A stretch of DNA of 64,000 bases from an uncultured Campylobacterales bacterium (GTDB lineage: Bacteria > Campylobacterota > Campylobacteria > Campylobacterales > Sulfurimonadaceae), in NCBI GenBank assembly GCA_903892995.1, contig CAITKP010000092.1:62001-126000 (forward strand), given 5' to 3'. Below, piece after piece: positions 24,441 through 29,596 of the stretch. Below the pieces are notes generated by a model. The model was not told the DNA's origin and made no database searches. It saw only the letters and a list, made by a program, of their open reading frames with translations. A program made the position numbers and the translations under genes. Every line of letters begins with the position of its first letter. Position 1 is the first letter of the stretch.

Positions 24441-26567
24441 ATGTTAGATAGATATCATACTGTTTCTCCGCTTTTAAGTGGAGAGGATGTGCAAAGCAAA
24501 CGCGAAGAGATTCGTAAATATTTTCACAATAGTTTCTCTCTTTTTGAGAGAGTTTTTGATCTTTTAAAAGATGATGAGGTCTTTTATAGGCAGTCAGAAC
24601 CAACCCGCCATCCGATGATCTTTTATTTTGGTCATACGGCTACTTTTTTTATCAATAAACTTATTTTAGCCGGTCTTATACAAGAGCGGATCAATCCAGA
24701 GTTTGAGTCAATATTTGCAATCGGTGTTGATGAAATGGCTTGGGATGACCTAGAGAGTGTTGCAAAAAGATGGCCTAAAGTAGATGAAGTAAGAGCGTAC
24801 AGAGCAAAAGTGAGAAGCGTTGTGGATCAGCTGATTATGACACTTCCGCTGAAACTTCCTATCGCTTGGGAAGACCCTTTTTGGATTATCTTAATGGGGA
24901 TCGAGCATGAACGTATTCATATAGAAACCTCTTCTGTTTTACACCGCCAAATGCCCTTAGAGTTTATCAAAGAGGTAAGTGAGTTTGATATCTTTGATGA
25001 TGCGAGTGAGAGCTTTGCACCTAACTCTCTTGTTAAAATAACAGGCGCTACACTCACTTTAGGAAAAGATCATACCCACCATCTTTATGGCTGGGATAAT
25101 GAGTATGGAACGCTTACATGTAAGCTCGAAGATTTTGAAGTTTCAAAATTTTTAGTGAGTAATGGCGAGTTTATGGAGTTTGTCCAAAATGGCGGTTATG
25201 AAGATGAGCGTTTTTGGGACGCGGAGGGCAGAAAATTTCTTCAACTCACAGGCGCAAAGCATCCGACTTTTTGGGTGAAAAATGCAGCAGCGTTCAGTTA
25301 CAGAACACTGAGTCGTGAAATAGAGATGCCACTGAACTGGCCTGTGGATGTCAATGTATTAGAAGCGCAGGCGTTTTGTCGCTATATCTCTTTGCGTGAT
25401 GGTGTGAGTTATACACTTCCAAGTGAAGCGCAGTGGTATAGGCTTTATGAATATGCAGGACTTGAAGATGTGCCAAACTTTGATGATACAGCGGCAAATA
25501 TCAATCTTTGCCATCATATGAGCGCTTGTAGCGTAGATCGATTTGCATTTGGGGAAGTTTATGATGTTGTTGGCAATGTTTGGCAGTGGACAAAAACCCC
25601 AATCGACGGATTTGATGGGTTTCGTGTGCATGATGCGTATGATGATTTTTCAACCCCAACCTTTGATACAAAGCACAATATCTTAAAAGGCGGTTCATTC
25701 ATAAGCACTGGAAATGAGATGACAAAACACGCTCGTTACGCATTTAGAAGACATTTTTATCAGCATGCAGGATTTCGTTATGTGATCGATTCACAAGAGC
25801 CTCCGTTGCAAAAGAGTGATATTTATGAGAGTGATGAGCTTGTTTCTCAGTATTGTGAGTTTCAGTATGGCGATGAGTATTTTGGTGTGAAAAATTTTGC
25901 CATAGAGTGTGCGACAAAGGCGGCATCTTTTGCTGTGCATACTACAAAAGCACTCGATTTGGGATGTGCGACAGGACGAGCCTCTTTTGAGTTGGCAAAA
26001 TATTTTGATGCTGTTGAGGGAGTTGATTTTTCAGCACGTTTTATCTCTGTCGCAACGCGTCTCAAAGAAGAGGGCTACATCGCTTATCACTCAAAAGAGG
26101 AGGGTGAACTCTATAGTTTAAAAAGAGTTACACTAGAGGAGTTGGGCTATAAAGAGCTTACACCCACAGGGGATTTCACATCTAAGGTTGATTTTTGGCA
26201 GGGTGATGCGTGCAATCTCAAATCAAACCTGAGTGGATACGATCTTATTATGGCAACAAATCTCATAGATAGACTCTATAATCCGCTCCTGTTTTTACAA
26301 GATATTGCCCATCGTTTAAATGAAAATGGAACACTTGTTTTAACCTCTCCATACACTTGGCAAGAGAGCTCTACAAAAAAAGAGTTATGGCTTGGTGGCT
26401 ATAGAGATGAAAATGGCAAAGAAGTGAGAACTCTCGAAAAATTACAAGAGATACTGAGCGAGCAGTTTGAACTCTTACATGTAAGCGATATTCCTTTTGT
26501 CATCAAAGAGAGTGCTAGAAAATATCAACACACCATTGCACAGATGAGTATTTGGAGAAAAAAATGA
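24441..26567 (+). CDS. ovoA: 5-histidylcysteine sulfoxide synthase with C-terminal methyltransferase (ovothiol synthesis)
   Basis: Iron-dependent sulfoxide synthase that couples cysteine to the C5 of histidine, fused to a SAM methyltransferase that would N-methylate the thiolhistidine, giving ovothiol A. The N-terminal DinB-like part has RHPMIFYFGHTATFFINKL (about 55) and the iron-binding HX3HXE motif in EHERIHIETS (about 155), diagnostic of OvoA. A formylglycine-generating-type lectin domain (about 190-450; GNVWQWT, LKGGSF) follows, then the methyltransferase (LDLGCATGRASFELA at about 505). 708 residues, full length. Overlaps the next gene by 4 bp. Palindromes at 25115 and 26476. Confidence 0.93.
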   Translation: MLDRYHTVSPLLSGEDVQSKREEIRKYFHNSFSLFERVFDLLKDDEVFYRQSEPTRHPMIFYFGHTATFFINKLILAGLIQERINPEFESIFAIGVDEMAWDDLESVAKRWPKVDEVRAYRAKVRSVVDQLIMTLPLKLPIAWEDPFWIILMGIEHERIHIETSSVLHRQMPLEFIKEVSEFDIFDDASESFAPNSLVKITGATLTLGKDHTHHLYGWDNEYGTLTCKLEDFEVSKFLVSNGEFMEFVQNGGYEDERFWDAEGRKFLQLTGAKHPTFWVKNAAAFSYRTLSREIEMPLNWPVDVNVLEAQAFCRYISLRDGVSYTLPSEAQWYRLYEYAGLEDVPNFDDTAANINLCHHMSACSVDRFAFGEVYDVVGNVWQWTKTPIDGFDGFRVHDAYDDFSTPTFDTKHNILKGGSFISTGNEMTKHARYAFRRHFYQHAGFRYVIDSQEPPLQKSDIYESDELVSQYCEFQYGDEYFGVKNFAIECATKAASFAVHTTKALDLGCATGRASFELAKYFDAVEGVDFSARFISVATRLKEEGYIAYHSKEEGELYSLKRVTLEELGYKELTPTGDFTSKVDFWQGDACNLKSNLSGYDLIMATNLIDRLYNPLLFLQDIAHRLNENGTLVLTSPYTWQESSTKKELWLGGYRDENGKEVRTLEKLQEILSEQFELLHVSDIPFVIKESARKYQHTIAQMSIWRKK

Positions 26568-27745
26568 GTTATGATTTTTCTCGCAGTGCAAGCAGAGAAA
26601 AATCAAACGCAGAGAAATATCAACTCAAAGAAAAGCTGTTTCACACAACAGATCTGCTTCCGATGTGGGTTGCTGATATGGATATTGACACTCCAGATTT
26701 TGTGATAGAGGCGGTGCAAAAAAGATTAGAGCATCCAAACTTTGGCTATGAAGAGATGCCATCTTCTGCTTTTTTAGCGCAAATAGCGTGGCTCAAACGC
26801 CATCATGATATTGTGTTTAAAGAGGAAGAACTTTTATACTCTCACTCGGTTGTAGCAAGTATGAATGTCGCTATCGAAGCTTTTAGCGAGGTCGGCGATA
26901 AGATTATTGTGCAATCACCTGTGTATCCGCCATTTTTTAAAAGTGTGACGCAGCATAACAGAAAAGTTTTGTTCAATCCTCTCAAAAAAGATGTCTCAGG
27001 GGAGTATAGATTTGACTTTGATGATCTGCGCTCAAAGATAGATAAGGACACAAAACTTCTTCTTCTTTGCTCACCGCACAATCCCCTTGGGCGTGTTTGG
27101 AGAAGAGAGGAGCTCTTGGAATTAGCCGATATCTGTTTGGAGCATAATATCGTTGTTTTCTCAGATGAGGTTCATAGTGATCTTGTTTTTGCACCAAATA
27201 AACATATCCCGTTTGCATCTTTGAGTGAAGCGGTTCGCGAAAACACTCTCACTGCTTTTGGTGTGGGAAAAAGTTTTAATCTCGCTTCATTTGCTATAAG
27301 TACAGTCGCAATTTCAAATAAACTGCTTCGAGAAAAGTACCAAAAAGTCTATGATAAGATCCATTTTGCTCAAGGCACAGCTTTAGGTCATGTGGCATTT
27401 GAAAATGCTTACATGTACGGCGATGTTTGGCTTTGTGAGCTAAAAGAGCATTTGCAAAAAAATATCGTTATGCTTGAAGAAGTTTGTAAAAAACATAATG
27501 ATAAAATCTCATTTATTGCGCCGCAGGGAACATATCTTGCATGGCTTGATTGTTCAAATATGCATCTTCATGAGAGAGAGTTGAGAGATTTTTTTGTAAA
27601 AGAGGCAAAACTTGGACTCTCTGCTGGCATCTCATTTTCAAAAGAGGGCAGCGGCTATATGCGTCTAAACTTTGCAGTCTCTACGGAGATTATGAAAGAA
27701 GCGATGGCGAGATTGGAACTTGCATTACAAAGGTTGAAAAGATGA
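26564..27745 (+). CDS. ovoB: PLP-dependent C-S lyase (MalY/PatB type), probable OvoB
   Basis: 393-residue fold-type I aminotransferase-like enzyme of the MalY/PatB cystathionine beta-lyase group: LPMWVADMDIDTPDFV (about residue 34), NFGYEEMP, SPVYPPFF, CSPHNPLGRVW and SDEVHSDLV are group markers; the PLP lysine is in FGVGKSFNLA. The ATG at 26564 overlaps the ovoA stop (ATGA) and has GGAG upstream; the TTG at 26552 is less likely. Ovothiol synthesis needs a PLP lyase to cleave the sulfoxide made by OvoA, so this gene is the natural OvoB. That assignment is inference from context. Palindrome at 27410. Confidence 0.85.
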   Translation: MSYDFSRSASREKSNAEKYQLKEKLFHTTDLLPMWVADMDIDTPDFVIEAVQKRLEHPNFGYEEMPSSAFLAQIAWLKRHHDIVFKEEELLYSHSVVASMNVAIEAFSEVGDKIIVQSPVYPPFFKSVTQHNRKVLFNPLKKDVSGEYRFDFDDLRSKIDKDTKLLLLCSPHNPLGRVWRREELLELADICLEHNIVVFSDEVHSDLVFAPNKHIPFASLSEAVRENTLTAFGVGKSFNLASFAISTVAISNKLLREKYQKVYDKIHFAQGTALGHVAFENAYMYGDVWLCELKEHLQKNIVMLEEVCKKHNDKISFIAPQGTYLAWLDCSNMHLHERELRDFFVKEAKLGLSAGISFSKEGSGYMRLNFAVSTEIMKEAMARLELALQRLKR

Positions 27746-27990: not shown

Positions 27991-28408
27991 TAATTTAGAA
28001 AAAATAGAGAAGTTTTTAGCAAAACACCATACTCTTTCGCTCTCTACATGTAAGGATAATATCTGCTCCACTTGCACGCTTTTTTATGCGTATGATAAGG
28101 AAGAAAACTGCTTTATCGTCGCATCAGATGAAAAAACAGAGCATGTCCAAAATCTTTTTTTCAATCCAAATGTCTCTGGAACTATTCATCTAGAAACTGA
28201 GCTTGTAGGAAAGATTCAAGGTGTTCAATTTAAGGGAAAAATGCTTACATGTAAGGATGAAAAGCGAATCTATTTAAAGCGATTTCCTTACGCTTTAGCT
28301 ATGAATCCTACACTTTGGAAAATAGAAGTGGAGTTTTTTAAGTTTACAGACAACCGTCTTGGATTTGGAAAAAAGCTTATTTGGCAGCGGGAAGCGGTTT
28401 CTCACTAA
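27983..28408 (+). CDS. UPF0306 (YhbP-like) flavin-binding split-barrel protein
   Basis: 142 residues of the pyridoxamine 5'-phosphate oxidase-like split-barrel superfamily. The order of motifs matches E. coli YhbP: FLAKHHTLSLST, EKTEHVQNL, GKIQGVQFKGKM and the terminal KFTDNRLGFGKKLIWQRE. YhbP biochemistry is undefined; the fold usually binds flavin or heme. The ATG at 27983 is preferred to the TTG one codon upstream. Last gene of the ovoA-ovoB run. Carries two palindromes (28045, 28246), both read as S/L-T-C-K. Confidence 0.82.
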   Translation: MTDNLEKIEKFLAKHHTLSLSTCKDNICSTCTLFYAYDKEENCFIVASDEKTEHVQNLFFNPNVSGTIHLETELVGKIQGVQFKGKMLTCKDEKRIYLKRFPYALAMNPTLWKIEVEFFKFTDNRLGFGKKLIWQREAVSH

Positions 28409-28556
28409 AATAAGCACACTCGATGCCTGAACTTTGTTTTACAACCATAGAAGGAATCATCTTAGACTTAAAACCGTATGCTTTGCAACCATGAGGCTGT
28501 GAAGCATTCCATGTCACAAAATAATATAAGCATCTTCTACAGTTTATACGTTGCAT
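28377..28556 (-). CDS. Small Cys-rich protein (possible metal-binding)
   Basis: 59 residues starting MQRINCRRCLYYFVTW. Four cysteines: a CxxC pair near the N-terminus, one in PHGCKAYGFKSK and one in SSGIECAYF, a spacing that suggests a single zinc or Fe-S site. I recall proteins of this pattern as short conserved proteins in proteobacteria, sometimes annotated as uracil-DNA glycosylase without clear basis; I would not use that name. The ATG at 28556 has an AAGAAG site upstream. Convergent, overlapping the YhbP-like gene by 32 bp. The MITE-like element begins 50 bp upstream. Confidence 0.7.
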   Translation of the reverse strand: MQRINCRRCLYYFVTWNASQPHGCKAYGFKSKMIPSMVVKQSSGIECAYFSEKPLPAAK

Positions 28557-28605
28557 AAATTGAACTTCTTTTAGTGGATTTTTGCAAAATTTTAGCATAA
28601 TAAAG

Positions 28606-28875
28606 TTATACAAAGTTCAATTAATCCAACATACACTAAATAAAAAAGAAGCTATTAGATACAAGGCAAATCTTTGTAGGACTAGCTTTAGCTAATCCAA
28701 AAAGATTTAACGAAGCTAGATGATAGCTTCTTTTTTACCCTTTGGGCGAGCATATTGCATCATCTTACTTCGTTGAAAATACTTGAAGCTACGAGTAGCG
28801 ACTGCGTTTTTTCGCCTTGCAATCTGACGCAATATACTCGTTTAGAGTATGTTGGATTAATTGAACTTTGTATAA
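28606..28875. mobile_element. 270-bp MITE-like element with 29-bp perfect terminal inverted repeats
   Basis: The ends 28606-28634 and 28847-28875 are perfect inverted repeats of 29 bp (outer ends TTATACAAAGTTCAATTAAT), extending to 35 bp with one mismatch. Inside are two nested structures. One is a perfect 14-bp inverted repeat, AAAAAAGAAGCTAT (28642-28655) with its complement at 28723-28736. The other is an imperfect long hairpin with GAGCATATTGC (about 28748) facing GCAATATACTC (about 28829). No open reading frame lies within. It occupies nearly all of the 350-bp gene-free stretch between the Cys-rich gene and dut. No certain target-site duplication is visible. Non-autonomous transposition is the likely origin. 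Confidence 0.65.
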
Positions 28876-28906: not shown

Positions 28907-29596
28907 ATGGATAAAATAGTATTGATGTTAGAGCTTCAGCAACAGTTAAATGATGCTACAAATGGTGCCCAGTGGACCAGTGGAGTGACAAAAAATGGTA
29001 AAGAGATCAACTGGAAACGATGCATTTATATGGAATGCGCAGAGATGATCGACTCGTTTGCATGGAAACACTGGAAAAATATCGCCGCAGAGCCTGATTG
29101 GGACAATCTCAAAATCGAAGTTGTAGATGTCTGGCATTTTATCTTGAGTCAAGCGATTGAAGAAAATGCAAAAGTTGGCAAGCTTAGTTTTGAAGATTTG
29201 GCAAATCAAAGTTGTGCAGTTTCTTCTTATGCGGGCATTACAAAACAAAACACCCTTTACGCATCTCAAAAAGAGATTATTGAACAAGTAGAACTTTTAA
29301 TGCTTGATGCACTCGAGCGTGATGGCTTTCATCTTTCTAAAATGATGGAACATTTTTTCACTTTAGTGAAAATGAGCGGGCTTGATATAGGTACGCTTTA
29401 TCGTCTATATGTTGGAAAAAATATTCTCAATCAGTTCCGTCAAGATCATGGATATAAAGATGGTTCTTATATAAAAATATGGAATGGAGTTGAAGATAAT
29501 GTTGTGATGAAGGGGATTTGGGAGGAAAATGGCGATATCGCTCCTGAATTTTTATATGAAAAACTTGAAGCACATTATGAGATTTTAGAGGCGTAA
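28907..29596 (+). CDS. dut: Dimeric dUTPase (all-alpha NTP pyrophosphatase type)
   Basis: Hydrolyses dUTP to dUMP and pyrophosphate, keeping uracil out of DNA. 229 residues of the all-alpha MazG-related fold known from Campylobacter and trypanosomatids, not the trimeric type. Metal-binding acidic motif YMECAEMIDSFAWKHWK (about residues 42-58) and EVVDVWHF (about 71) are intact; NQFRQDHGYKDGSYIK is the typical C-terminal motif. The promoter region is the right end of the MITE-like element. 2 bp before proA. Confidence 0.92.
   Translation: MDKIVLMLELQQQLNDATNGAQWTSGVTKNGKEINWKRCIYMECAEMIDSFAWKHWKNIAAEPDWDNLKIEVVDVWHFILSQAIEENAKVGKLSFEDLANQSCAVSSYAGITKQNTLYASQKEIIEQVELLMLDALERDGFHLSKMMEHFFTLVKMSGLDIGTLYRLYVGKNILNQFRQDHGYKDGSYIKIWNGVEDNVVMKGIWEENGDIAPEFLYEKLEAHYEILEA

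Follow-up and report, generated by a model that had tools for sequence, protein, structure and literature searches.

What is the palindromic stretch that separates a small Cys-rich gene from dut in a Sulfurimonadaceae genome, and how did it come to lie there? The window analyzed here comprises 64,000 nucleotides of contig CAITKP010000092.1 from an uncultured Campylobacterales bacterium, and the initial annotation placed in it a MITE-like element of 270 bp with 29-bp perfect inverted ends (35 bp with one mismatch), two hairpins, and no reading frame. Our repeat search recovered the same terminal inverted repeats (28606–28640 and 28841–28875; 35 nt, one mismatch, outer 29 perfect). The 270-bp stretch is real, but its outermost 3 bp at either end (TTA on the left, TAA on the right) belong to the target-site repeat, and the element proper measures 264 bp (28609–28872). 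The hairpins are two arms that lie side by side within the inverted repeats (28641–28737 and 28746–28841), separated by a small CCCTTTGGG palindrome, and no open reading frame was found in the 264 bp. The fold energy corresponds to a z-score of -11.9 on the plus strand and -14.5 on the minus strand, none of 200 shuffled sequences being as stable. The features of the locus are as follows.

28377–28556, minus strand: Cys-rich small protein gene, a neighbor outside the element (tblastn in L207–L212, L214, and L216)
28606–28608, no strand: left copy of the target-site repeat, TTA today and ancestrally probably TAA (empty site AAAG-TAA-AATAC in G005)
28609–28872, plus strand: whole mobile element, TACAA...TTGTA (full-length match to covariance model R1, 245.8 bits)
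28609–28640, plus strand: left terminal inverted repeat, 5' side of stem P1 (repeat search; pair count)
28640–28737, plus strand: left arm P2, which folds on the plus strand (match to covariance model R2, 87.0 bits)
28664–28667 and 28709–28712, plus strand: invariant left-arm motifs AGGC and AACG, respectively (conservation among copies)
28738–28746, no strand: central mini-palindrome CCC-TTT-GGG (sequence; CCCNNNGGG in most copies)
28746–28841, minus strand: right arm P4, homologue of the left arm (R2 match on the minus strand, 80.0 bits)
28814–28817 and 28771–28774, minus strand: invariant right-arm motifs AGGC and AACG, respectively, as complements of these positions (R2)
28841–28872, plus strand: right terminal inverted repeat, 3' side of stem P1 (repeat search)
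28873–28875, no strand: right copy of the target-site repeat, TAA (empty-site comparison)
28907–29596, plus strand: dut-like dUTPase gene, a neighbor outside the element (PF08761, dUTPase_2, E 4.5e-33)

The history of the site was read from relatives. The element sits where it had been annotated; about 52 bp separate its left end from the conserved start codon (ATG, 28556, minus strand) of the Cys-rich gene, and 34 bp separate its right end from the dut ATG. The Cys-rich gene, whose product had no match in Pfam and NCBIfam searches, adjoins dut in most relatives examined, and in five congeners (G005, G006, G003, G007, and G001) it still lies beside dut at a locus free of the element. When the 264 bp and one 3-bp repeat are removed, the window aligns gap-free to G005 (..AAAG TAA AATAC..). 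Counting against a simple duplication, the flanks in the window are not identical (TTA and TAA), and the ends read TACAA...TTGTA rather than the TACCA...TGGTA of the family consensus; we infer that one substitution has probably changed the left repeat to TTA since insertion. Among copies with TACCA...TGGTA ends in relatives, 28 of 33 have identical 3-base flanks (14 TTA and 14 TAA). A direct repeat at 28547–28567 looks like the element end but belongs to the host: relatives without the element largely have it too. The same genome carries a second dut-like gene (G000:C81:3566–4189, L227), 46% identical to that in the window. Farther upstream, the translations at 24441–27745 look like an ovothiol (ovoA-ovoB) pair: a sulfoxide synthase fused to a methyltransferase, and after it a PLP enzyme.

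The annotation had proposed a genome search for other copies, and such copies are present. The assembly (2.43 Mb, 107 contigs) contains four left and three right flanks of further copies, which gives at least four besides that in the window. These are approximately 73% identical to the window copy and 98–100% identical among themselves, and almost all lie at contig ends, as expected because recent repeats break assembly. Matches were obtained by blastn in 90 of the 228 genomes of the taxonomic family. The covariance model R1, built from 28 copies (alignment A1), extended this to 114 of the 228 genomes and 13 of 18 genera, and in a sample of 397 genomes spread evenly over the phylum it matched 51 (19 of 68 genera) from several families of the order; the arms were found in nine families of the order in the phylum-wide sample. 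The R1 matches are almost always full length (~257–271 nt). Short, non-coding, bounded by terminal inverted repeats, dispersed in multiple copies, and accompanied by target-site duplication and empty sites, the element has the general properties of a MITE, as had been suggested.

Most of the named records in which the arm motif occurs are Sulfurimonas MAGs; R1 gave no match to an Anaerosporobacter bin with the motif, which is probably a chance occurrence. Searches of plasmid and phage collections returned no match to the element, and Rfam at permissive thresholds gave only chance-level matches (~20–21 bits against gathering scores of 70 or more). A description of the element was not found in the literature on Sulfurimonas or Epsilonproteobacteria with IS630 or miniature inverted-repeat elements. 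The family is previously undescribed and order-wide. Several genomes also hold truncated single ends and tiny two-end palindromes of ~35–64 bp (L175, L177, L180, and L182 in G004 and others; G031:C5:3986–4049; G085:C1:578226–578260), which seem to have arisen from the element by decay or deletion. Three copies (L080, L083, and L162) bear an extra palindromic insert of ~20–35 nt within an arm, for example GCACCCCAGG..GGGCGCC, possibly another small mobile repeat. Three identical copies in G275 (L136, L137, and L138) also agree in the 15 bp on either side, so the segment duplicated there must be larger than the element itself.

What these copies have in common is above all their interior. RNAalifold on A1 gave 103 pairs, 73 of them with both sides changed in at least one sequence. 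Read inward, the two arms are homologous and follow the pattern ..CAAGGC-[stem]-GCAGGA-[hairpin]-TTCAA-[stem]-AACGAAG... A single-arm covariance model (R2, built from alignment A2) found the arms in six genomes as a plus-strand match followed by a minus-strand match ~105 bp away; the strong matches were inverted doublets, and single-arm matches were mostly at contig ends or weak. In 114 arms representing all end types, 94.3% of the cells are paired, the covariation score is 0.816 against 0.11–0.16 with the partners slid, and AGGC and AACG are 94–100% conserved though largely unpaired. The inner half of the terminal stem varies freely yet stays complementary. The aligned copies show the predicted core to be one hairpin module present twice, face to face around CCCNNNGGG; it is no remnant of the insertion sequence (IS) that shares the element's ends.

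The folds are also strand-specific. With fixed wobble columns removed, and bearing in mind that these counts come from related, non-independent sequences and are not probabilities, A1 contains 44 G-T against 5 A-C cells in the left arm on the plus strand and 51 against 7 in the right arm on the minus strand, whereas the terminal stem (13 G-T, 20 A-C) has no strand bias. In the inner helices of alignment A3, read inward and with the usually-G-U column left out, the ratio is 80 to 5, and the pattern persists in distant families whose stems have diverged. The inward strand folds more stably than the opposite strand in 70 of 73 left arms and 71 of 73 right arms, with mean advantages of 7.7 and 10.8 kcal/mol, respectively; DNA folding parameters give the same preference in 70 of 73 for both arms. 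Because of the inward G-T bias, the invariant loops, and the covariation, each arm is best read as selected for its fold on the inward-reading strand, be it as RNA or as single-stranded DNA. Since the modules are inverted, each strand has exactly one correctly folding arm in either insertion orientation. The terminal stem is no such selected single-strand fold, and its symmetry may be due to palindrome correction or to a requirement that the two ends be equal.

The ends point to a mobilizing enzyme. Single ends in G004, G123, G295, G361, and G224 were mostly truncated or decayed copies, except for three in G123, which led to an IS with TACCAATCCCCACTAA ends. A full-length relative of this IS in G103 (L197, 590–1711) has TACCAATCCCCATTAA ends with TTA on both sides, and its transposase, in two reading frames, matches DDE_3 and the NCBIfam family transpos_IS630. 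The complete genome G102 contains a second IS630-family IS whose ends, AAGTACCTATCCAAAAATAAAACCAATTAA, match 29 of 30 bp of an element copy in the same genome (L155, of the different, AAGTACC end type). Overlap with the element is ~17 bp for one IS and ~30 bp for the other. At least two end types thus correspond to two different IS630-family transposases, out of about six types in all; GGGCACCTCTAA, TTACCGCACC, AACTGACC, and AGACTTCTTGC had no IS match. The full-length transposon with the same ends that the annotation had envisaged therefore exists in relatives (L197), but none was found in the element's own genome, where a search of the assembly for IS630-family transposases was likewise negative. 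The complete genome G295 holds more than 10 copies with GGGCACCTCTAA ends; for these GGGCACC-type ends, neither a PF13358 transposase match nor two ends spaced as in an IS were found there, and no partner was assigned. The two IS630-family transposases (L197, 602–1656; L228, 1396–2437) are both split into at least two frames, which may reflect programmed frameshifting or decay.

The target duplication fits this partner less neatly. IS630 elements normally duplicate TA rather than TWA; copies with TACC-type ends duplicate 3 bp, TWA, and AGT-type copies, read by eye, mostly fit a TA duplication. A 3-bp TWA duplication is as expected for PIF/Harbinger- or IS5-type elements, but the partner transposase found belongs to transpos_IS630/DDE_3, and the ends shared with IS630-family elements of relatives are those of an IS630-mobilized MITE.

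Based on these comparisons, we propose, with a probability of about 0.8, that the element is a non-autonomous DNA transposon (MITE) with IS630-family ends and a conserved folded two-arm core. An IS630-type transposase acting in trans would excise it and insert it into a TWA target, with duplication of these 3 bp; mobilization in trans is inferred from the shared ends, and the TACCAANCCC ends are the proposed substrate of the L197 transposase. The copy in the window would have been inserted at a TAA directly upstream of dut. A correctly folding arm would be the binding site of a factor that recognizes nucleic acid in single-stranded form. As different copies have different ends, two of which match different IS630-family elements, the core seems to be the lasting part, paired over time with the ends of different transposases. 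There is an even chance, in our estimate, that the copies form an order-wide superfamily in which the two-arm core is inherited, the terminal repeats are swapped, and one arm is recognized per strand.

The genomic context bears on how the arms might be used. None of the 71 copies with genes on both sides lies within a reading frame: 36 are between divergent genes, 27 between tandem genes, and 8 between convergent genes, compared with 15 divergent among 67 comparison gaps of 30–200 bp at comparable loci. Orientation relative to tandem genes has no clear preference (11 vs 16). Because most copies sit between divergent genes, transcripts that run inward should be uncommon; this counts against an exclusively RNA role. 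The bases outward of TGGTA are TAAT or TTAT at 31 of 66 ends, giving an extended -10-like sequence on either side. In the window, the initial suggestion of outward promoters was not borne out by a sigma-70 consensus scan at the element, which found no -35/-10 pair, although the element ends create TGGTATAAT/TGGTATTAT-like -10 sequences. Outward promoters are only suggestive, and -10-like ends could make insertion in 5' regions tolerable. A bidirectional terminator, also suggested, was not recovered: the terminator-like pattern occurs on the plus strand only (28712–28730), inside the left arm.

Recognition of the arm as RNA is our leading reading, at roughly even odds. The arms may instead be single-stranded DNA hairpins exposed on the lagging strand at the replication fork, where they would be recognized for excision or insertion as in REPINs; we regard this as a tentative alternative that comes a close second, given the divergent placement of most copies. 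G-T is the best-tolerated mismatch in DNA too, the strand preference is retained under DNA parameters, and one functional arm per strand suits random orientation. REPINs, too, are inverted doublets in which unpaired bases are conserved and changes on one side of a stem are compensated on the other (PMC3116915). Such a route is harder to reconcile with the 3-bp duplications and IS630-type ends, which point to double-stranded cut-and-paste, and with an end-sharing IS630-type element that lacks the arms. It is unlikely that the complementarity was never selected, template switching in quasi-palindromes having copied arm onto arm and made the stems perfect by mutation. A symmetric process of this kind predicts the unbiased G-T and A-C counts of the terminal stem, and the variable yet complementary inner half of that stem agrees with it, but the 80:5 bias of the arms, the invariant unpaired AGGC and AACG inside paired stems, and the near-constant length across families are left unexplained. 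Template switching is largely refuted for the arms and is possible for the terminal stem.

MITEs often arise by internal deletion of an IS, and the ~17 and ~30 bp held in common with the two IS elements would suit a functionless derivative whose folds are leftovers of palindromic IS ends. This origin is very improbable for the present family: neither IS has arms in its interior, so simple internal deletion of either does not account for the MITE; the same arms accompany several end types, and they recur in nine families of the order. That the stretch is a regulatory region or structured RNA native to the dut locus, as the strong fold directly upstream of dut might have suggested, is scarcely credible. 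A single copy conserved in all relatives, named at the outset as the finding that would indicate such a region, is contradicted by the empty site in the five congeners and by the presence of the element elsewhere in many genomes, and no Rfam family reaches its threshold.

A non-autonomous DNA transposon with a folded core can be set beside known small repeats. The MITE-like repeat bcr1 of the Bacillus cereus group has a proposed conserved RNA fold, is 155 bp long, and differs in TSD and host; we know of no paired inverted arms in it. SINEs keep their core and change their tails, an analogy for a conserved core with exchangeable ends. Correia/NEMIS and ERIC repeats have a conserved TIR sequence and one main hairpin, whereas the present family combines variable TIRs with conserved arms. 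REPINs, to our knowledge, make no target duplication. Correia/NEMIS and ERIC are similar in being TIR-bounded, foldable intergenic repeats that can affect neighboring transcripts (PMC2229807, PMC10969869). The CIR elements of Caulobacter and Brucella likewise have two inverted-repeat arms and a linker (PMC2229807) but are ~110 bp long, carry a GANTC motif, and belong to another lineage and sequence. REPIN/BIME repeats (REP doublets, RAYT) share the inverted imperfect-hairpin doublet, the conserved unpaired bases, and the compensatory changes (PMC3116915). Unlike the arms described here, which are 96 nt long, lack the tag typical of REPs, and lie inside an IS630-type shell with a target duplication, REPIN hairpins measure ~20–40 nt and have no IS-type ends. 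RUP, the repeat unit of pneumococcus, is a small intergenic repeat mobilized in trans by IS630-Spn1, and an IS630-family IS with matching ends occurs in the same genome or in a related one, as is the case here (PMC2229807). RUP is 107 bp long, confined to one species, and inserted at TA, with no described two-arm conserved core; the present element is 264 bp long and order-wide, with a 3-bp TWA target and exchangeable ends. By analogy, it behaves as RUP does at its ends, while its inverted doublet of folded arms recalls a REPIN.

What is new, as far as alignments and predicted folds can tell, is a core of two homologous facing arms with invariant AGGC and AACG and a strand-specific G-T bias. 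Bacterial MITEs are usually viewed as passive IS leftovers defined by their ends, whereas in this family the ends vary and the interior fold is conserved across several bacterial families; that a nucleic-acid machine under selection is carried by some bacterial MITEs thereby becomes a testable proposition. The AGGC/AACG internal loop offers a concrete motif for finding the binding partner. With copies mostly in 5' regions, about half of them between divergent genes, the element may rewire promoters throughout the Campylobacterales.
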